Translations under genes and position numbers: made by a program | Source of the DNA: a bacterium | Lineage (GTDB): Bacteria; Campylobacterota; Campylobacteria; Campylobacterales; Sulfurimonadaceae | NCBI GenBank assembly: GCA_018822665.1 | Contig: JAHJJX010000033.1 | Location: forward strand, 1-56,724 | Direction of reading: 5' to 3' | Length of the DNA: 56,724 bases | Shown: positions 16,915 through 51,872 of the stretch, piece by piece | How the letters are laid out: every line of letters begins with the position of its first letter | Numbering within the stretch: the first letter of the stretch is position 1 | Notes under the pieces: generated by a model | Told to the model about the DNA's origin: nothing | The model's database searches: none | The model's input: only the letters and a program-made list of their open reading frames with translations

Positions 16915-19011
16915 ATGATAAATCTTAGAAATCCAAACCTTTATAACAATAGAGAAGTTTCTTGGCTTCAATTTAATACCAGAGTGCTCAAACAAGCGCA
17001 AGACGAGTCTCTTCCTTTGCTTGAACGTTTAAAGTTTTTAGCTATCTACGGAACAAACTTAGATGAGTTTTATATGATTCGGGTGGCCGGCCTTAAAAAA
17101 CTTTTCTCTGCCGGAATTATTGTTTCGGGTGCAGATAAACTCACGCCGCTTCAGCAACTCAGAGAAATTAGAAAATATTTGCATCAAGAACAGCAGGTTA
17201 TCGAGCACTGCATGAGCGAAATTTTAAAGAAGTTGGAGCCGGAGGGAATATACGTAAAAACCTACGATACCGTTACACAAAATGAAAAACATAAATTAAA
17301 CAAATATTTTAAAGAAAATATCTACCCTGTCATCATCCCTATTGCCGTGGATGCCACCCACCCTTTTCCACATTTAAACAACCTCAGTTTCGGGCTTATC
17401 GTAAAGCTAAGCGACAGCGATGACGCTTCAATAGAACGCTTTGGAATTATTCGAGTTCCCAGAGTATTAAGCAGATTCGTCGAACTTGGCAACGGAACTT
17501 ACATACCCATAGGAAGCCTTGTAGCACAACATGTTTCAGAACTTTTTCCGGGTTACACGCTTATAAAGTATGCTTCATTCAGAGTCACCAGAAATGCGGA
17601 CATTGCCATAGAGGAAGAAGAAGCCGATGACTTCATGGAAATACTCGAAGAGGGATTAAAACTTCGCCGTAAAGGGGAGATGGTACGACTGGAAATCGGA
17701 AGCAGCAGCGATGAAGAAATTATAAACTTTTTTAACCGTCATACGAATGTTTACAAAGATGATATTTACAGATTTCATACTTTTATTAATTTATCCAGTC
17801 TTTGGCAGATTGTCGGGAACAAAGATTTTGCTCATCTTTTAGCAGCACCTTTTAATCCAAAAAACTTGCCTCCTTTTGATAATAACGAAGATATTTTTGC
17901 AACACTTGAAAAAGAAGATGTCCTTTTATACCATCCTTATGAAAGTTTTGAGCCTGTCATCAGATTTATTCAGAACGCTTCTAAGGACCCTAATGTTGTT
18001 TCTATTAAAATGACACTTTACCGCTCAGGGACAAATTCGCCGATAGTTCAGGCGCTTATGAATGCTTCTGAATCCGGAAAGCAGGTTACGGTAATGGTTG
18101 AACTCAAGGCAAGATTTGATGAAGAGAACAATCTTATCTGGGCAAAAGCGCTCGAAAAAGCCGGAGCTCACGTTATTTATGGGATTAGAGGATTTAAAGT
18201 TCACGCAAAAGCCACTTTGGTAACCCGCAGAAAAAATGGAAAACTCAAACAGTACGCACATTTAGGAACAGGGAACTATAATCCTTCCACTGCAAAAATA
18301 TATACGGATTTAAGCTATTTTACAAGCAAAGATATTGTAACAAATGACTTGACGAGATTTTTTCACTTTTTAACCGGATTTAGTAAAAAAGGGAAGTTGG
18401 ATGAACTTTATATGGCGCCTTCTCAAATCAAACCTAAACTGCTTTCTCTGATTCAAAACGAGATGAGAAAAGGAAGCGAGGGGCAAATAATTGCAAAAGT
18501 GAACTCTCTTGTAGATGATGACATCATTCGTGCGCTTTACAAGGCAAGCCAAGCCGGAGCAAAAATAGACCTTATTGTTCGAGGAATCTGTTGTTTAAAA
18601 CCGGGGATTACAGGTGTAAGCGAAAATATCAGGGTTATTTCTATTTTAGGAAAATATTTGGAACATCCTAGAAGTTTTTACTTTAAAAATGATTCGACGC
18701 AAGTATACATTTCAAGCGCCGACTTAATGCCAAGAAACCTTATGAGAAGAATAGAACTCCTGACGGGGATAAAAGATGAAGCTGCAAAAGACAAGATTGT
18801 TCAAATATTGAAACTTCAATGTTCTGACAATTCGCTCACGCATGAGTTGCAGAAGGACGGTTCCTATAAAAAAATCAAATCTGACCACGATAAAACTATT
18901 AATAATCATAAATTATTGGAAGATTATGTCAATCGTATAGCAAAAGCAAGAAAAAAAGAAAATGCAAGCGGTGTCGTGCAAACAGCATCCCGACTTTTTA
19001 TAGAGGATTAA
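16915..19011 (+). CDS. ppk: Polyphosphate kinase 1
   Basis: A 698-residue PPK1 that reversibly polymerises the gamma-phosphate of ATP into polyphosphate. The four family domains are recognisable: an N-terminal helical domain (NREVSWLQFN near residue 12), the head domain, and two phospholipase-D-like catalytic domains. The phosphorylated His is in GFKVHAKATLV near residue 428, with GTGNYNPSTA following. Length and motifs are complete. In this phylum polyphosphate supports stress survival and energy storage. The carbonic-anhydrase-like gene follows after 2 bases. Confidence 0.96.
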   Translation: MINLRNPNLYNNREVSWLQFNTRVLKQAQDESLPLLERLKFLAIYGTNLDEFYMIRVAGLKKLFSAGIIVSGADKLTPLQQLREIRKYLHQEQQVIEHCMSEILKKLEPEGIYVKTYDTVTQNEKHKLNKYFKENIYPVIIPIAVDATHPFPHLNNLSFGLIVKLSDSDDASIERFGIIRVPRVLSRFVELGNGTYIPIGSLVAQHVSELFPGYTLIKYASFRVTRNADIAIEEEEADDFMEILEEGLKLRRKGEMVRLEIGSSSDEEIINFFNRHTNVYKDDIYRFHTFINLSSLWQIVGNKDFAHLLAAPFNPKNLPPFDNNEDIFATLEKEDVLLYHPYESFEPVIRFIQNASKDPNVVSIKMTLYRSGTNSPIVQALMNASESGKQVTVMVELKARFDEENNLIWAKALEKAGAHVIYGIRGFKVHAKATLVTRRKNGKLKQYAHLGTGNYNPSTAKIYTDLSYFTSKDIVTNDLTRFFHFLTGFSKKGKLDELYMAPSQIKPKLLSLIQNEMRKGSEGQIIAKVNSLVDDDIIRALYKASQAGAKIDLIVRGICCLKPGITGVSENIRVISILGKYLEHPRSFYFKNDSTQVYISSADLMPRNLMRRIELLTGIKDEAAKDKIVQILKLQCSDNSLTHELQKDGSYKKIKSDHDKTINNHKLLEDYVNRIAKARKKENASGVVQTASRLFIED

Positions 19012-19013
19012 AA

Positions 19014-19541
19014 GTGTTACATTCATTTAAAAAACATTCACCGAAGCTAGGCGCTGAAACATGGGTGGCTCCATCCGCCGACGTTGTAGGCAATGTGACT
19101 TGCGGTGATGATTGCTCCATCTGGTTTGGCTGCGTTGTAAGAGGTGATGTCCATTACATAAAAATTGGAAATCGCGTGAATATTCAAGACTTAACGATGA
19201 TTCATGTGACACATTATAAAAAAGCTGACATGAGTGACGGAAATCCGACGATAATCGGGGATGACGTAACCATAGGACACAGAGTAATGCTTCACGGATG
19301 CACCATTGAAGATGCCTGCCTGATAGGGATGAGCGCTACTATACTTGATGGTGCCGTTATAGGAAAAGAGTCTATCGTTGGAGCCGGTTCTCTTGTAACC
19401 AAAGGGAAAGTTTTTCCTCCGCGTTCACTCATCATGGGTTCTCCCGCAAAGCTTATAAGAGAATTAAATGATGATGAAATCAAAGAGTTATATGCATCTG
19501 CATCAAGATATGTAGAGTTTAAAAAAGATTATCAAGACTAA
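19014..19541 (+). CDS. Gamma-carbonic-anhydrase-like hexapeptide protein
   Basis: A 175-residue left-handed beta-helix protein of the gamma-CA/YrdA/PaaY family. Hexapeptide repeats run from about residue 15 to 140. The three histidines that bind zinc in the family appear in MIHVTH and IGHRVMLHG, so CO2 hydration is possible, although many members have no proven activity. The GTG start is chosen because AGAGGA lies five bases upstream, just after the ppk stop. Linkage to ppk suggests cotranscription only. Confidence 0.85.
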   Translation: MLHSFKKHSPKLGAETWVAPSADVVGNVTCGDDCSIWFGCVVRGDVHYIKIGNRVNIQDLTMIHVTHYKKADMSDGNPTIIGDDVTIGHRVMLHGCTIEDACLIGMSATILDGAVIGKESIVGAGSLVTKGKVFPPRSLIMGSPAKLIRELNDDEIKELYASASRYVEFKKDYQD

Positions 19542-19547
19542 TTCCAC

Positions 19548-20159
19548 ATGCCGGAATATTTTATTTACGCCGACATTATCGGAATCGTTGCTTTTAGTAT
19601 CAGTGGATTTTTAATCGCTATAAAAAATGATTTAGATATTCTTGGAATTCTTATTGCATCCACCCTCACCGCTCTTGGCGGCGGGGTAATACGAGATGCG
19701 ATTTTAAGCACAAGCCCTTTTGCTTTTATCTATATATACCCGGCTTTAACTCTTTTTATAACGCTTTTTATCGTGTATCTGTTTAAAATATATAAAAAAC
19801 CGTCCATTGAGAGAAAATGGATATTTGTTATCAGTGATACGATAGGACTTGTTGCTTTTAGTATTACAGGTGCTATCCTTGCTATCAACGCAGAGTATAA
19901 TTTTTTTGGAATTATAATCATCAGCTTTATCACGGCTATGGGCGGCGGTGTTACAAGAGATATTCTTATAAACCAAGTCCCAAGTGTACTTATCAGCGAT
20001 TTTTACGGCTCCATTGCCGTTATTGTTGCAATTCTCATAGCTTCACTGCATTTACTTGATTTTTTAAACGAGCTCACAATTATAGTAGTGGCAATATTGT
20101 GTATTGTATTAAGATTAGTGGCTTTTAAGAGAGAGTGGAATTTGCCGAAACTGACCTAG
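19548..20159 (+). CDS. TRIC/UPF0126 (YicG-like) membrane protein
   Basis: A 203-residue protein with seven predicted helices arranged as two similar halves, each with the family signature (ALGGGVIRD near residue 42, AMGGGVTRD near 128). It belongs to the trimeric intracellular cation channel-like family (UPF0126); bacterial members are proposed to move K+ or other cations. The ATG lies inside a CCACATGCC tag (19544-19552), so the tag fixes the first residues Met-Pro. No strong ribosome site is present. A tag-built hairpin follows the stop by 12 bases. Confidence 0.88.
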   Translation: MPEYFIYADIIGIVAFSISGFLIAIKNDLDILGILIASTLTALGGGVIRDAILSTSPFAFIYIYPALTLFITLFIVYLFKIYKKPSIERKWIFVISDTIGLVAFSITGAILAINAEYNFFGIIIISFITAMGGGVTRDILINQVPSVLISDFYGSIAVIVAILIASLHLLDFLNELTIIVVAILCIVLRLVAFKREWNLPKLT

Positions 20160-20171
20160 GTTTAAAAATTC

Positions 20172-20200
20172 CCTGGCATGTGGAATTTCCACATGCCAGG
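20172..20200. terminator. Tag-pair hairpin after the TRIC gene
   Basis: A perfect inverted repeat with 14-base arms and a one-base centre (CCTGGCATGTGGAA, T, TTCCACATGCCAGG). It is built from two facing copies of the CCACATGCC tag and begins 12 bases after the stop of the TRIC gene. No strong T run follows, so terminator function is inferred from position and stability. Paired uptake sequences in Neisseria and Haemophilus often sit in this way. Confidence 0.6.
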
Positions 20201-20232: not shown

Positions 20233-20369
20233 CCAAAATTTAGCGTAAAGACCCTCGCTTCAGCCATGGGGATATAAGCGTACATTATTCCACCAAACGA
20301 TACTACAGCAATACTTATTAGTGTGAAGTATGTAGTATCTCTTTTTGTAGTGTTTTTTGAATAAAAGCA
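20217..20369 (-). pseudogene. Possible gene 3' remnant downstream of hicB
   Basis: On the minus strand an open frame of 50 codons without a usable start overlaps the end of hicB and ends at 20217. Its tail looks like natural protein: a hydrophobic segment (FTLISIAVVSFGGIMYAYIP) followed by MAEARVFTLNFGN. That is consistent with the end of a membrane protein carried in or cut by the cassette. The stop codon lies in the left inverted repeat. I cannot name a family, and chance is possible. Confidence 0.25.
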
Positions 20370-20662
20370 TTAAGAGACATTCCAGCTTTTAATGCTTCTT
20401 GATAAACTTTTTTGTGAAGCTCAGGTTCAATTCTTATGTTAAATACACCTTTGTAAACTTTCTGTGGCTCTCTATTTAATTCACGGCAAGTTTGAATATA
20501 CTCATCAACAGCTTGATGAAAATTATCTTCTAGTTCTTCTGCTGATACTGCTTCAAAAGTTATCAAATCATCAATCATTTCTAATTTTCCAAAGAAACAT
20601 TTGTCCTCTGATGAATATTCAATACTTCCTATATATCCGTTGTACTCGATTGTATTAGCCAT
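20318..20662 (-). CDS. hicB: HicB-family antitoxin
   Basis: A 114-residue antitoxin: an N-terminal partially degraded RNase-H-like fold (YIGSIEYSSEDKCFFGKLEM, then FEAVSAEELEDNFHQAVDEY) and a C-terminal ribbon-helix-helix DNA-binding domain (FNIRIEPELHKKVYQEALKA, then MSLNAFIQKTL). It should bind the HicA mRNA interferase and repress the operon. GAGGTG lies five bases before the ATG at 20662. Its start overlaps the hicA stop by 8 bases, the usual toxin-first HicAB order. Confidence 0.9.
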   Translation of the reverse strand: MANTIEYNGYIGSIEYSSEDKCFFGKLEMIDDLITFEAVSAEELEDNFHQAVDEYIQTCRELNREPQKVYKGVFNIRIEPELHKKVYQEALKAGMSLNAFIQKTLQKEILHTSH

Positions 20663-20909
20663 TACACACCTCTTTAATCTTGATTTGAATCTGCTTTACT
20701 AGATACACTTTTAAAATGGGAGATGGATGTGGTTTATGAAGATTTATTAATACATCTCTTTCTTTATTATAAAACTTTACAGCCGAACCAGCACCATCTA
20801 TCTTAGAAAAGCCGCACGACAAAAGAAGAGTCTCTAGCTCATTAAAAGTCAAATCTTTTTTTGGTGGCACTTCTAAAAACTTTTTTAATAACTTATCTTT
20901 TTTACTCAT
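20655..20909 (-). CDS. hicA: HicA-family mRNA interferase toxin
   Basis: An 84-residue double-stranded-RNA-binding-fold toxin that cleaves mRNA. The family pattern is visible: LTFNELETLLLSCGF, then GAGSAVKFYN and the catalytic-His region LINLHKPHPS, followed by the C-terminal helix. I chose MSKKDK at 20909; an in-frame ATG five codons upstream (20924) is also open, and neither has a strong ribosome site. The family usually has a Ser/Gly-rich stretch before the His, as here. Confidence 0.85.
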   Translation of the reverse strand: MSKKDKLLKKFLEVPPKKDLTFNELETLLLSCGFSKIDGAGSAVKFYNKERDVLINLHKPHPSPILKVYLVKQIQIKIKEVCNG

Positions 20910-42366: not shown

Positions 42367-42409
42367 CTTGGCATGTGGAAACTTCCACATGCCATTGCAC
42401 ATGCCAAGA
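42367..42409. terminator. Three-tag hairpin region between nifB and nifV
   Basis: Starts immediately past the nifB stop. GGCATGTGGAA (42370-42380) pairs with TTCCACATGCC (42383-42393) across two bases. Alternatively TCTTGGCATGTG (42366-42377) pairs with CACATGCCAAGA (42398-42409), a third tag copy with one changed base. The two stems exclude each other. It could end part of the nifB transcript or protect its 3' end before nifV. Confidence 0.55.
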
Positions 42410-43828
42410 CTAATTTATTTCCATCTCTTCGCTAAGATTGAAATATTTGCGAGTTGCTTTTAAAACGGAAGCCTCTATCGGCTGGTATGCATAACTTTGG
42501 TCTGCAATAAGTCCCGCAGTTTTGAGGTCATCTTGCGGACATCCACCGATTTTTGCAGTTAAAATCAACTTGCAATCTTTGAGTTTTTCTAAAATCGGTT
42601 CCATCGGATTTGCACCCTCAGGTCCTGCACAGTATTCATAATCGAGTTTGCGGTGATGGATAAATCGTATCCCTTTATCGCCCGCTTCATAAATCAAAAA
42701 TTCTCTCACGGAACCGAAATGCTGATTAATCATCCCCTCGCCTGCCGTTGTAACTGCAACAAGAATTGTTTGACCCTCACTGCTGAGATTATCTTTTTCC
42801 TGTCTTACTCTCTCATTTGCTTTATCAAGAAAAAATCTAAACTCTTCGATTTTTGCCTGAGACTCTTGACGCGCTTTAATGTTGTAATGCTCTTCAAGTG
42901 CATCAAAACTCATAGAGCTAAAGACATCTTTTGTAAACTCCTGACCTCTGTCTTCGCCGATAAGACCGACAGCGTCTGCGCGACACTGACGGCAGTGCTG
43001 CATCAGTTTCATATCCATTCCACATGCCTCTTGTACTTCCATCTGCTGTTGGTCGGTTGCACTCGGCACGCCGCCGAGTCCAAATGCAGTCCCATGCTCC
43101 GGCTCTGAAATAATCGGCATAATGTTATGTAAAAATACGCCAATCTCTTTGAGCTTTTTAGAGACTTCAACAAGGTGTTTGTCATTGATACCCGGGATTA
43201 AAACAGAGTTTGCTTTGATTAAAATCCCGTTTTTAACGCACTTTTTCATACCCTCAAGCTGGCGTGCCAAAAGTATTTGCGATGCCTCTTTTGCGTAGAT
43301 GCGTTTGTTGTTGTAAAAAATCCATGGGTAGATTTTTGAACCGATTTCCCCTGTTTCATCTACGCTGTTAATGGTTACGGTGATGTGGTCAATGTTATAT
43401 TTCACCATCTCATCCACAAATGCCGGCAATTCCAATCCATTGGTTGATAAACATAATTTTAAATCAGGTGCTTTTTCGCGAACCATTTTGAATGTATCGA
43501 ATGTTTTTTTAGGATTTGCAAGTGCATCTCCCGGACCTGCTATGCCAAGAACACTCAGGCGCTGAACTTCACCGCCCACATACATCACTTTTTTTGCAGA
43601 CTCTTCAGGTGTCAAACGCTCACTTGTCACACCCGGACGGCTCTCGTTGGAGCAGTCGTATTTACGGTTACAGTAGTTGCACTGAATATTGCAAGCAGGT
43701 GCAACAGCTACGTGAATACGTGCATAATGGTGGTGCGCACCCTCAGAATAACACGGGTGATTATGAATTTTTTCTTGAATATCTTGTGGCATAAAAGCTT
43801 CGGCAGGGTTACTTGAACTACAGCTCAT
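42410..43828 (-). CDS. nifB: FeMo-cofactor biosynthesis protein NifB
   Basis: A 472-residue radical-SAM enzyme that builds the 8Fe-9S-C precursor (NifB-co). The SAM cluster motif is CNIQCNYCNRKYDC near residue 48; further conserved parts are GPGDALANP and MQHCRQCRADAVG near 280. From about 355 a NifX-like domain is fused (TILVAVTTAGEGMINQHFGS), the long form of NifB. TAAGGAG lies before the ATG at 43828. A sigma-54-like promoter element is about 80 bases upstream. Confidence 0.97.
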   Translation of the reverse strand: MSCSSSNPAEAFMPQDIQEKIHNHPCYSEGAHHHYARIHVAVAPACNIQCNYCNRKYDCSNESRPGVTSERLTPEESAKKVMYVGGEVQRLSVLGIAGPGDALANPKKTFDTFKMVREKAPDLKLCLSTNGLELPAFVDEMVKYNIDHITVTINSVDETGEIGSKIYPWIFYNNKRIYAKEASQILLARQLEGMKKCVKNGILIKANSVLIPGINDKHLVEVSKKLKEIGVFLHNIMPIISEPEHGTAFGLGGVPSATDQQQMEVQEACGMDMKLMQHCRQCRADAVGLIGEDRGQEFTKDVFSSMSFDALEEHYNIKARQESQAKIEEFRFFLDKANERVRQEKDNLSSEGQTILVAVTTAGEGMINQHFGSVREFLIYEAGDKGIRFIHHRKLDYEYCAGPEGANPMEPILEKLKDCKLILTAKIGGCPQDDLKTAGLIADQSYAYQPIEASVLKATRKYFNLSEEMEIN

Positions 43829-45521: not shown

Positions 45522-46790
45522 CTATTTTCTTGTATCTTTTCTTACTGCTGTTAAAAATTGATAATATAAATAACCTAAAGATACTTTATTTAAAAAGAAT
45601 ATAAACGGTTTATCTTTTAATTTTTCTAAATTTGTAATATTTATATATTGCCAAAACTCATTCCAAATTTTACATATATATTCTATTTTAAAATGATATG
45701 GATGAAAAAATACATCTTTTACTATTTCAAGATGAACTAGAAAAATCGTCAAAAAACCCGTAAAAATAATCCACATTAAAGCTCTAAACCAACTGGTTGA
45801 ATGTTTAGAACTTATATCATGGATTTTAAAAACTAAATATTCCGAAAAATTTTGCCATTTATTTTTTTCAAGCTCTCTTTTTCTTTGATTAAGCTCTAGA
45901 GCATGATATTTGTTTGCTTCTATTTTATTTCCAAGTTTTTCAAATTGATTTTTTATTATTCTATATGTTTCTTGTGAGGTTGTTGAAGTATCTTCAATTT
46001 CTATGCCATAAAAATTTATCTCTTTTTGGACATTAGTATATTCTAAATCCAAGCCTTTATGAAGCTTTGCACTTTTAAAATGATTATATCCCTCAAAAGT
46101 CACATACTGAAAAATTAATTTTTCGAAAAATTCTGTATCTCCAAATAAAGCTAAACTTTTAAAATTCATAGATTTAAAATAAATTTCCTTTGTATTTAAA
46201 CCTTTATCAAATTTTGATTTATAAAAATCTGCATTTTTTTGAAAATCTGTATCTTTTAATTCTATTTCTTTCACCCTACAATTATGTAGTTTGAAATTAT
46301 TTTTAAATTCTGTATCTTTGATGATTAATTTATTTAAAATTATTTCACTGTTATGGTCATCGTCTTGTTTATTTATATAAAATTTACCATTAAATTCGCA
46401 AAAATCTACTGTAATACTTAAAATAGATTTAATACCAATAAAGCTAAATCCATTTGTTGCTTTTTCATTATCATGCTGTATATCTTTTAAAATAATATCA
46501 GTAAAACTACAATCATCAAATCTCACATATCTATTTAAAAGCCCATTAAATTCTAATTTACCTGAAAATGAGCAGTTTTTAAAATATAAATCATGACTAT
46601 CAAAAATACCTTTACCACCAATATTTTTACCATATTCTATTGTGTTTGTTGAAACTTTTATTTCATTATTATTGAATGTAATGTCAGGAAATTCAACATT
46701 TTCAAAAGTAATGATATTAGTTACTTCCAAACTGTTTCCATTTGAAAACAGTTTATCATCATTGATAATTATTTCTTCAAACCTAATCAT
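45522..46790 (-). CDS. Pentapeptide-like membrane protein linked to R-M gene
   Basis: A 422-residue protein. Residues about 20-270 show degenerate pentapeptide-type repeats with F or C every five residues (e.g. LYFKNCSFSGKLEFNG, YVRFDDCSFTDIIL). Then a charged helix, QETYRIIKNQFEKLGNKIEA, leads to two membrane segments near 336-356 and 394-413. The DNA is clearly more AT-rich than its neighbours, a sign of transfer. Its start overlaps the MmeI-like gene stop (ATGA), so both are expressed together. A role in phage defence is a guess from this coupling. Confidence 0.7.
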   Translation of the reverse strand: MIRFEEIIINDDKLFSNGNSLEVTNIITFENVEFPDITFNNNEIKVSTNTIEYGKNIGGKGIFDSHDLYFKNCSFSGKLEFNGLLNRYVRFDDCSFTDIILKDIQHDNEKATNGFSFIGIKSILSITVDFCEFNGKFYINKQDDDHNSEIILNKLIIKDTEFKNNFKLHNCRVKEIELKDTDFQKNADFYKSKFDKGLNTKEIYFKSMNFKSLALFGDTEFFEKLIFQYVTFEGYNHFKSAKLHKGLDLEYTNVQKEINFYGIEIEDTSTTSQETYRIIKNQFEKLGNKIEANKYHALELNQRKRELEKNKWQNFSEYLVFKIHDISSKHSTSWFRALMWIIFTGFLTIFLVHLEIVKDVFFHPYHFKIEYICKIWNEFWQYINITNLEKLKDKPFIFFLNKVSLGYLYYQFLTAVRKDTRK

Positions 46791-49489
46791 TGCAAATACT
46801 CCTCATACAACTCAAACAAAAATTCTATGCGTTCTTTGTCGTTTTTGAAGCTTTTGGTTGTGTAGCATTTATCTACTGCTTTGTCTAACTCTTGGTGGGC
46901 TTTTTTTAGGGTTGGGGGCATGGCTAGTGGGTCGTAGAGGTCGGCTAGTGAGCTCTCTTTGAAACTCTCTCTTACTTCTAAAACTTTTTGTGCTTTTTCT
47001 TCTACATGTAGTCTGTTTTTTTCGCTTACATTTTTTGGGAATGGGTAGTTGTTGTAAACTAACTCATTTGAATATCTGATTCGACTTTCAAGTCTTCCTG
47101 CTATATATTTAATCCATGACATGTGCATTAGTGAAGTCAAGATACCAAAATGAGCTAGAGAAGCAATCGGAATAACACTTGTAGAATTATTTGCTATAGA
47201 ATTTTCATTAAAAAAGCCAATTGGTATATATATTCTATTTTCTGACGAATGCAGTGGAATCAATACAAAATCACTTTTCGGTTGCCTATTTTCGCCAAAT
47301 AATGTTGGGTATTCCGCAAGTTTTTTCGTGGCTTCTCTTGTACTCTCTTCTCTTAGTTTTTTTACATTTTCAATGCGTTGCTTCACATGTGGCATTGATT
47401 TTAAATCATTTGGTTCTAAATCTTCAAGCCATAAGCACCATCTGTTTTTTCCATGTAAGAATTCTTTTGCACTGAGTAATGGTTTGATATATTTCTCTGC
47501 CATTGGCTCATGTAGTAAAAGTTCTGCTTTTTCTTCATCGGTAAGCAAAAAGTTTCCGCCGTCATTTGGCATACTTCCAAAAGAAATATTTGGAACATCG
47601 CAAATTGGTTTTCTTCTTTTTTCTATGACAAAATCATCGCCCTCAACCAAATATGGATTGATATTTTTCACACTCTTGGCATGTGGTTCTGCTTTTATAT
47701 CTTCGTATTCAAAAATAGTTTTAGTTTCAGTGTCAAAATTTGCAAATCCAATTATCACGACATGTACGGCTGCGTTTGCTTTTGCTTCGTTGCTCCAGTT
47801 AAAGGTTTGATGTGCAAAGTGAATTTTGATTTTGTAGTTGTCAAACAGTTCTTTCCAAAGTATGCCGACCTGTTCGCCCTGAGCGATGGAGTTTGTGGAG
47901 ACAAAAGCGGCTTTTATATTTGTGTTTTGGATGTATCGTGCGGCTTTGAGATACCAAGCCGTAACATAGTCTAAAACTCCCGCCCCTTGAACTTTGCCAA
48001 AGATTTTTTTCATATCTTCTTTTTGTTCTTTACCTTGTAATTGCTTACCTATAAACGGCGGATTCCCAAGAATAAAAGAGAGTTTATCTTTTGCTATCAC
48101 ATCTTCCCAGTCAATAGCAAGTGAATTTCCATGCACGATATTTGCCGATTTTTTGAGTGGAAGCCTTGCGAAATACTGCCCAAAATACTCACTTATCATC
48201 ATGTTCATTTGATGGTCTATGAGCCACATGGCTACTCTTGCGATTTGTGCGGCAAACTCTTCGACCTCTATGCCGTGAAACTGGTCAACATCACACCAAA
48301 CTATGGCATCAATGTCAAGTACATTTTCTTTGTGAAGGAGTTTGAGTATTTCAAACTCCAGTTTTCGTAGCTCTCTGTAGGAGAGAATAAGAAAGTTTCC
48401 ACTTCCACATGCCGGGTCAAAAAAGTTAAGTGTGGAAAGCTCTTTGTGAAACTCTTGAAGCTTCGTTTTGTTTTTCTTTACCTTTTCAAATTTTTCATAA
48501 AGCTCATCCAAAAACAGAGGTTTTATGAGCTTTAAGATGTTGCCCTCGCTTGTGTAATGCGCACCTAGATTTCGTCTGTGGGCTTTGTCCATGATGGACT
48601 GAAAAAGTGAGCCGAATATGGCAGGAGATATTTTGCTCCAGTCAAGATAACAACACTCCAAAAGTGCCTCTCTCATTTGAGTATTAAAAGCAACTATGGG
48701 TAAAAACTCTTCAAAAAGTCTTCCGTTTACATAAGGAAATGCGTTTACGCTCTCATCAAGATTTTTTAGTCTCTTGTTTTGCGGTGTGTTTAACACTTGA
48801 TAAAGTTCGGCTAACTTACTCCCGACATCACTTCCGTCTTCATGTGTCTTGTTTTCTATGAACTCCGTAAAAAGTCTTTTTTCAAAGATGGCTGTATCTT
48901 CTGCAAAAAGCAAAAAGAGAAGTCGCACCAAAAAATGCTCCAACGGATGTCCGTCATAACCTGTCTCTTTGAGCGCGTCATGAAGTTTGCCCATAAGCAA
49001 TGCGGCTTTTATGTTTATGGGGTCTTCTGCTACGACTTTGTGCTTTGTATATCCTGCGATAAAACCAAAAAGATTGACATTTTTGTAGAGTTCGCTTATG
49101 CTAAATTCGTGTGTAGTGTCTTCTTCCAAATCATGAAGTCTAAAAATTTCAAAGTCGGAGATAAGAATGTACTTTGGAAGTTCCACTTCTTTTAGTCCTG
49201 GAAAATAATCAAGTGCTTGAGTGTAAGCTTTGTCTAAATCTTTACCTTTTGATTTGTGCTCAACAAGCAAAACACCTTTCCAAAAAAGGTCAATCCGCCC
49301 TCTTTTTTCACCAAGTTTTTTAACAGGCTCTTCAAAGGAAGCTACACGTTTACGGCTAATACCGAAAATATTAAAAAATTCATTCCAAAAACTCTGTGAT
49401 TCTGCATGTTCTCGCTCTTCACTTTCCCACTCTTTGGAAAAATTGATTGCTCTATTTTTTATCTCGTTCCAGCTTAGTGCCATTTGCAA
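46787..49489 (-). CDS. MmeI-like (Type IIL) restriction-modification enzyme
   Basis: A 900-residue single-chain enzyme. The nuclease site near the N-terminus is Asp67-x9-Glu77-x-Lys79 (RIDLFWKGVLLVEHK), the spacing I recall for MmeI. The gamma-class N6-adenine methyltransferase has motif I DPACGSGNFL near 356 and motif IV NPPF near 475. The C-terminal 300 residues should hold the target-recognition domain and helical tail. Such enzymes methylate one strand for self-protection and cut at a fixed distance. No separate methylase is present or needed. It looks intact. Confidence 0.9.
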   Translation of the reverse strand: MQMALSWNEIKNRAINFSKEWESEEREHAESQSFWNEFFNIFGISRKRVASFEEPVKKLGEKRGRIDLFWKGVLLVEHKSKGKDLDKAYTQALDYFPGLKEVELPKYILISDFEIFRLHDLEEDTTHEFSISELYKNVNLFGFIAGYTKHKVVAEDPINIKAALLMGKLHDALKETGYDGHPLEHFLVRLLFLLFAEDTAIFEKRLFTEFIENKTHEDGSDVGSKLAELYQVLNTPQNKRLKNLDESVNAFPYVNGRLFEEFLPIVAFNTQMREALLECCYLDWSKISPAIFGSLFQSIMDKAHRRNLGAHYTSEGNILKLIKPLFLDELYEKFEKVKKNKTKLQEFHKELSTLNFFDPACGSGNFLILSYRELRKLEFEILKLLHKENVLDIDAIVWCDVDQFHGIEVEEFAAQIARVAMWLIDHQMNMMISEYFGQYFARLPLKKSANIVHGNSLAIDWEDVIAKDKLSFILGNPPFIGKQLQGKEQKEDMKKIFGKVQGAGVLDYVTAWYLKAARYIQNTNIKAAFVSTNSIAQGEQVGILWKELFDNYKIKIHFAHQTFNWSNEAKANAAVHVVIIGFANFDTETKTIFEYEDIKAEPHAKSVKNINPYLVEGDDFVIEKRRKPICDVPNISFGSMPNDGGNFLLTDEEKAELLLHEPMAEKYIKPLLSAKEFLHGKNRWCLWLEDLEPNDLKSMPHVKQRIENVKKLREESTREATKKLAEYPTLFGENRQPKSDFVLIPLHSSENRIYIPIGFFNENSIANNSTSVIPIASLAHFGILTSLMHMSWIKYIAGRLESRIRYSNELVYNNYPFPKNVSEKNRLHVEEKAQKVLEVRESFKESSLADLYDPLAMPPTLKKAHQELDKAVDKCYTTKSFKNDKERIEFLFELYEEYLQ

Positions 49490-51257: not shown

Positions 51258-51275
51258 TTACAAAAGGATTTCCAC

Positions 51276-51872
51276 ATGCCAATCATCCCAACAGTTAAAG
51301 ACAGATCGCCAAGAGGAGAAAGATACTTTGACCTCTTCTCAAAACTTTTAAATGACCGCGTCATTATGATTACAGAACCCGTTGATGACTATATGATGGG
51401 AATTATTGTTGCACAGCTTCTTTATTTGGAAGCAGAAGATTCTCAAGAACCTATCCATATGTACATAAGCTCACCGGGAGGTTCTGTGATGGCGGGACTT
51501 GCCATACTCGACACAATGGAACTGATTTCTGCCCCTGTTTATACCTACGCTATGGGAATGGTGGCTTCCATGGCTGCCGTACTTTTTGCATGCGGCGAAA
51601 AAGGGCATAGGTACATTATGCCAAATGCGGAGGTGATGATTCATCAACCCCTAGGCGGAACATCGGGACAAGCGAGCGATATTGAGATTCAGGCAAACCA
51701 TATTATAAAGCTTAAAAAAAGACTTTATAAAATTCTTGCAAAGGCGACAGCAAAACATGTTAAGACTATTGAAAAAGAGAGTGACCGCGACAACTATTTT
51801 GAAGCACCTCAAGCAATTGCATTTGGATTGGCCGACACAATACTAAGCAGTATCTCCAAAAAGGATATATAA
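51276..51872 (+). CDS. clpP: ATP-dependent protease subunit ClpP
   Basis: A 198-residue serine peptidase. The catalytic Ser is in YAMGMVASMAAVLFACGE near residue 98, the His in EVMIHQPLGGTSGQ near 123, and the Asp near 172 (SDRDNYFEA region). It forms the ring that digests proteins fed by ClpX. The ATG lies inside a CCACATGCC tag (51272-51280); AAAGGA is 7 bases upstream. As it sits in a nif operon it is probably a second, nif-dedicated copy. Confidence 0.93.
   Translation: MPIIPTVKDRSPRGERYFDLFSKLLNDRVIMITEPVDDYMMGIIVAQLLYLEAEDSQEPIHMYISSPGGSVMAGLAILDTMELISAPVYTYAMGMVASMAAVLFACGEKGHRYIMPNAEVMIHQPLGGTSGQASDIEIQANHIIKLKKRLYKILAKATAKHVKTIEKESDRDNYFEAPQAIAFGLADTILSSISKKDI

Follow-up and report, generated by a model that had tools for sequence, protein, structure and literature searches.

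Some bacteria related to Sulfurimonas carry hundreds of copies of a short DNA tag that resembles a label for recognising their own DNA, and facing pairs of this tag form hairpins just behind genes; such labels were so far known from two other bacterial families. The starting point was a hairpin in a 56,724-nucleotide stretch of a Sulfurimonadaceae genome (assembly GCA_018822665.1, contig JAHJJX010000033.1, positions 1 to 56,724; hereafter the window), for which an earlier note had described a perfect 14-bp hairpin of two facing tags 12 bases after the stop of a TRIC gene, and had likened it to the paired uptake sequences that serve as terminators in Neisseria and Haemophilus. The hairpin that the note described is real, and the tag from which it is built is a genome-wide motif. 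The interpretation is only partly supported: the pairs are in strong excess and sit right after stop codons, but as a class they do not have the form of canonical Rho-independent terminators.

Results

A facing tag pair and its surroundings

The hairpin consists of CCTGGCATGTGGAA, a single T, and TTCCACATGCCAGG, which is a perfect 14-nt inverted repeat; as RNA the predicted fold is 13 bp with a 3-nt loop, at -23.6 kcal/mol. The product of the upstream gene matches Pfam Gly_transporter, which is the TRIC-type family. On the + strand the hairpin is followed by ACAATTATTG, whereas on the - strand there is a T5 run 3 nt behind the stem, which would serve transcripts from the hicAB side. A Pfam scan of seven other window genes gave nothing that bears on the hairpin, although it identified a single-gene MmeI-type restriction-modification protein (46787-49489) that contains two tags. 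At two places, 19544-19552 and 51272-51280, the tag overlaps the start of the next gene, such that the ATG inside CCACATGCC is the called start codon of 19548-20159 and of 51276-51872, respectively.

Coordinates of the hairpin and neighbouring features within the window
Position	Strand	Feature	Remarks
20172-20200	.	Inverted pair of tags	Perfect 14-nt arms around one T
20175-20183	-	Left tag copy	Core 9-mer
20189-20197	+	Right tag copy	Core 9-mer
20164-20168	-	A5 on the + strand	T5 for transcripts leaving the hairpin on the - strand
19548-20159	+	TRIC-type membrane protein gene (Pfam Gly_transporter)	Upstream of the hairpin; ends 12 nt before it
16915-19011	+	Polyphosphate kinase gene	First of the gene row that the hairpin follows
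19014-19541	+	Hexapeptide-repeat protein gene	Same row
20318-20662	-	hicB gene	Faces the hairpin; stop 117 nt from the hairpin edge
20655-20909	-	hicA gene	
42370-42393	.	Second facing tag pair of the window	16 nt beyond the stop of the - strand gene 42410-43828

The tag and its distribution

The 9-mer CCACATGCC is the strongest 9-mer signal of the window, with 32 copies against 0.18 expected. In the whole genome (2,507,095 bases, 44 contigs) TTCCACATGCCA occurs 404 times with no hit of the reversed control, TTCCACATGCC 662 times with 1, and TCCACATGCC 859 times with 2; the last is used alike on both strands, with 437 and 422 copies. The preferred flanks are A at -4 and TT before the core, and A or G, then A, then G or A after it. 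The core is very sharp, in that single-mismatch variants at positions 4-11 of TTCCACATGCCA total 1 in a 789-kb sample, against 143 exact copies. Tags inside genes favour one frame, read as Pro-His-Ala. Of 328 tags in the fetched sequence 113 are non-coding (110 intergenic and 3 at gene edges), but this share is inflated because stretches were chosen for pairs; in the seven stretches not so chosen plus the window, 11 of 71 are non-coding, with 7.9% non-coding sequence, and 60 of 71 lie inside genes. Tandem arrays of the tag in direct repeat with an 18-19 nt period are found at two places in the same genome (contigs designated C20, 449079-449160, and C32, 13358-13420).

Among 398 genomes drawn from the order (compared genomes are given G numbers here), TCCACATGCC is abundant in the genome of the window (859), G413 (1302) and G307 (887), and raised in G360 (71); all others have at most 11. 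Among 135 genomes of the genus, 17 including that of the window have 33 to 946 copies of the 11-mer TTCCACATGCC, and the others have at most 15. An apparent strand bias in G307 and G441 was rejected, as the counts are even and the stretches taken from these genomes have both strands.

Facing pairs are in excess and follow stop codons

With a gap of 0-20 nt, the whole genome has 26 pairs of the form GGCATGTGG..CCACATGCC and 21 of the form CCACATGCC..GGCATGTGG (22 matches, one nested in another), against 13 direct matches at 8 places, two of which are the tandem arrays; from the 10-mer counts we estimate that about 1.5 inverted pairs per orientation would be expected by chance. A shuffle test gave a mean of 2.8 inverted pairs and at most 9 in 1000 shuffles, against the observed 47, although it was run on the sample chosen to hold the pairs; the whole-genome counts do not have this bias. 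A genome-wide excess of inverted pairs after stop codons had been named beforehand as a condition of the note's reading, and it is satisfied.

All 47 pairs were set against automatic gene calls, and 19 lie between convergent genes, 17 between tandem genes, 2 in divergent regions, 1 at a locus edge, and 8 were called intragenic. Of these eight, one lies 7 nt before a stop, four lie within 2 to 52 nt of a called ORF start that may be wrong, one is in an ORF of very low coding score, and two look truly internal, so that pairs are also in some excess inside genes. Of the 39 called non-coding, 36 have their centre within 60 nt downstream of a stop. Convergent regions make up 6,257 of the 789,155 sampled bases, but because the sample was chosen to hold the pairs, densities per base are inflated.

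Pairs in other genomes behave alike. Of at least 105 stretches returned by a scan, 80 were considered, and ten of these, from unrelated bacteria (10 pairs), were left out; in the remaining 70, from eight MAGs (three of which correspond to G307, G413 and G441), 76 distinct GG..CC pairs fall as 31 convergent, 32 tandem, 3 divergent, 4 intragenic and 6 at edges. Of the 68 with an adjacent stop, 61 lie within 40 nt of it, with a median of 14; a further 4 pairs have no adjacent stop. These stretches were found by their pairs, and thus speak on place but not on frequency.

As a class the pairs show no T-tail enrichment or preferred orientation

We considered whether the pairs are canonical Rho-independent terminators built from paired uptake sequences, as described for Neisseria and Haemophilus. 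The stems are strong, with a median of -20 kcal/mol, and the share between convergent genes (19 of 47, pairs within 20 nt) resembles that in N. meningitidis (94 of 231, pairs within 10 nt; Kingsford 2007, PMC1852404). However, in the 8 nt after the stem, in the direction leaving the adjacent gene, the mean number of T is 2.76 (n=29) and 2.48 (n=25) for the two pair types, against a background downstream of stops of 2.71 (n=1250), and it is 2.42 (n=89) in the other MAGs. With A-T pairs at the stem base trimmed it is 2.82 for convergent pairs (n=38). Non-tag hairpins of the same genome reach 3.70 (n=20), and E. coli hairpins 3.19 (n=32) against a background of 1.92; this control, of 16 hairpins, several perhaps REP-like, and with a gene table entered in part by hand, shows only that the measure responds. 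Hairpins in convergent regions of ten relatives numbered 0 to 4 each, too few for a baseline. Six of 19 convergent tag hairpins have at least 5 T on one side, close to the 4 to 5 that we calculate from the background rate. There is also no preferred pair orientation (26 to 21), whereas a strong orientation bias and conserved A- and T-tails are reported for Neisseria (PMC1852404). As a class these are therefore not U-tailed terminators, though single ones may be, and we regard the canonical terminator reading as unlikely, notwithstanding the match to the Neisseria pattern in position after stops and the T5 run on the - strand exit of the window pair.

The same gene-row end in relatives

The row polyphosphate kinase - hexapeptide protein - (TRIC) directly faces argJ in 7 of the 24 loci looked at. 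Of these, tag-rich G459 and G441 have an exact tag pair in the gap (local folds -23.9 and -19.5), tag-poor G378 and G032 have unrelated, non-tag hairpins (-9.4 and -9.8), tag-poor G111 (14 nt) and G429 (4 nt) have none, and in G011 the genes abut or overlap. Elsewhere, tag-rich G413 has an exact pair after an insert, tag-rich G451 has a non-tag hairpin (-12.4), and G460 has one exact tag before its contig ends. In the window hicAB (20318-20909) stands between the hairpin and argJ, and is a likely insertion beside the hairpin. A hairpin slot thus exists but is not essential, and tag pairs often fill it in tag-rich species, although this is one locus.

Related motifs in tag-poor species

Other species of the genus carry other over-represented motifs that share ACATG with the window's tag and look like dialects. 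In tag-poor G032 and G429 the motif is CTACATGTAG-like (weaker in G429), in G011 and G160 it is TTACATGTAA, and in G366 there is a weaker TTACATGTAA beside a separate repeat around GTGCCTGACACCC, with 11 copies in 100 kb. G378, G349, G395 and G012 showed none at 100-200 kb each, and G462 has the window's tag weakly. In the 114 genus genomes at 80% completeness or more, 19 have 99 to 551 sites of YTACATGTAR and at most 15 copies of TTCCACATGCC, while the 13 with at least 33 copies of that tag have 4 to 25 YTACATGTAR sites; zero overlap against about 2 expected is weak evidence alone, and many species of the genus show neither of the motifs counted. The palindromic sites lie mostly inside genes, 57 of 63 in five genomes. 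A tree of polyphosphate kinase groups G032 with G429 and G011 with G160, but in this one-gene tree tag-rich species are scattered among tag-poor ones and several forks are open.

Competence genes and transposases

ComEC is found in 108 of 114 genus genomes, including that of the window, which also has 7 prepilin matches, and prepilins are found in 18 of 18 genomes searched. These allow the idea of an uptake role but do not mark tag-rich species, since both ComEC and prepilins also occur in tag-poor relatives, and among the 13 tag-bearing genomes G504 (104 tags, 99% complete) shows no ComEC match; ComEC and prepilin number were accordingly rejected as markers. Prepilin genes of the window's genome include two clusters, on contigs designated C26 and C24; no receptor for the tag was identified from a list of the prepilins alone.

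We also considered REP/BIME-like mobile palindromes moved by a Y1 (RAYT) transposase, as these too are short inverted repeats after stop codons, and the genome of the window has one Y1 transposase match. However, G459 and G451, with 595 and 535 tags, have no Y1 match, most tags lie singly inside genes, there are nearly no core variants, and single tags are not palindromic; this reading is very unlikely and already largely refuted.

Discussion

The analysis shows that the hairpin is an inverted pair of a genome-wide, lineage-specific 9-12 bp tag, and that facing pairs of this tag lie after stop codons; that the tag promotes DNA uptake, and that the pairs function at mRNA 3' ends, is inferred from sequence. 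With moderate confidence, we favour the explanation that the tag is most likely a DNA uptake sequence of a Sulfurimonas lineage, and that facing pairs were recruited, or are kept, as stem-loops at the 3' ends of mRNAs. In this view they most likely act as 3'-end structures that block 3' exonucleases and bound transcripts ended by Rho or by weak pausing, and only the minority with a T-run would be true intrinsic terminators. PNPase is blocked by 3' double-stranded RNA (PMC10319736). The inverted arrangement is reported not to change transformation efficacy (Treangen 2008, PMC2397512), so pairs need another reason, which in our reading is a 3'-end role.

An alternative is that the tag is not an uptake sequence but the binding site of a chromosome-organising or regulatory protein, with facing pairs binding a dimer or two copies. 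The very sharp core is consistent with this, as are the palindromic motifs of other species, since sites of dimers are often palindromic. Against it are the even strand use, the location of only 2 of 47 pairs in divergent, promoter-bearing regions, and the large share of tags inside genes; moreover, a binding role would not by itself place pairs after stop codons. We consider it unlikely.

The closest described systems are the facing DUS/USS pairs that act as terminators in Neisseria and Pasteurellaceae (PMC1852404, PMC2397512), with which the pairs described here share an abundant tag, an excess of facing pairs, location after stops and between convergent genes, and scarcity inside genes or in divergent regions. 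They differ in having an unrelated tag sequence, in another phylum, in using both pair orientations about equally, and in lacking A/T tails. The core, CACATGCC, is neither the CTG of Neisseriaceae nor the GCGG of Pasteurellaceae, and the tag would thus be at most an independent third kind of uptake sequence. Eight DUS dialects are described in Neisseriaceae, where related species carry different tags sharing the short core CTG and inverted pairs are common in all dialects (Frye 2013, PMC3630211); here the shared core is ACATG, and two motifs of the genus are palindromes. REP/BIME elements share inverted short repeats after stop codons, but here most tags lie singly inside genes, the core is nearly invariant, and a transposase is not required. 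A 2025 paper names only Neisseriaceae and Pasteurellaceae as families known to discriminate by such tags (PMC12616744). Our literature search, which did not cover most subscription papers and bioRxiv preprints, found no paper with both Sulfurimonas and uptake sequence and no title on such tags in this group.

The evidence does not exclude, and we consider slightly more likely than not, a third, independently evolved uptake-tag system, in Campylobacterota, with species-specific dialects built on ACATG (TTCCACATGCCA, CTACATGTAG, TTACATGTAA), in which facing tags became 3'-end mRNA stem-loops without a U-tract: the same recruitment as in Neisseria, by another route. A third lineage in another phylum, with its own dialects and its own recruitment of facing tags behind genes, would show that both the tags and their second use arise repeatedly, and would provide environmental bacteria in which uptake specificity and its receptor can be studied.
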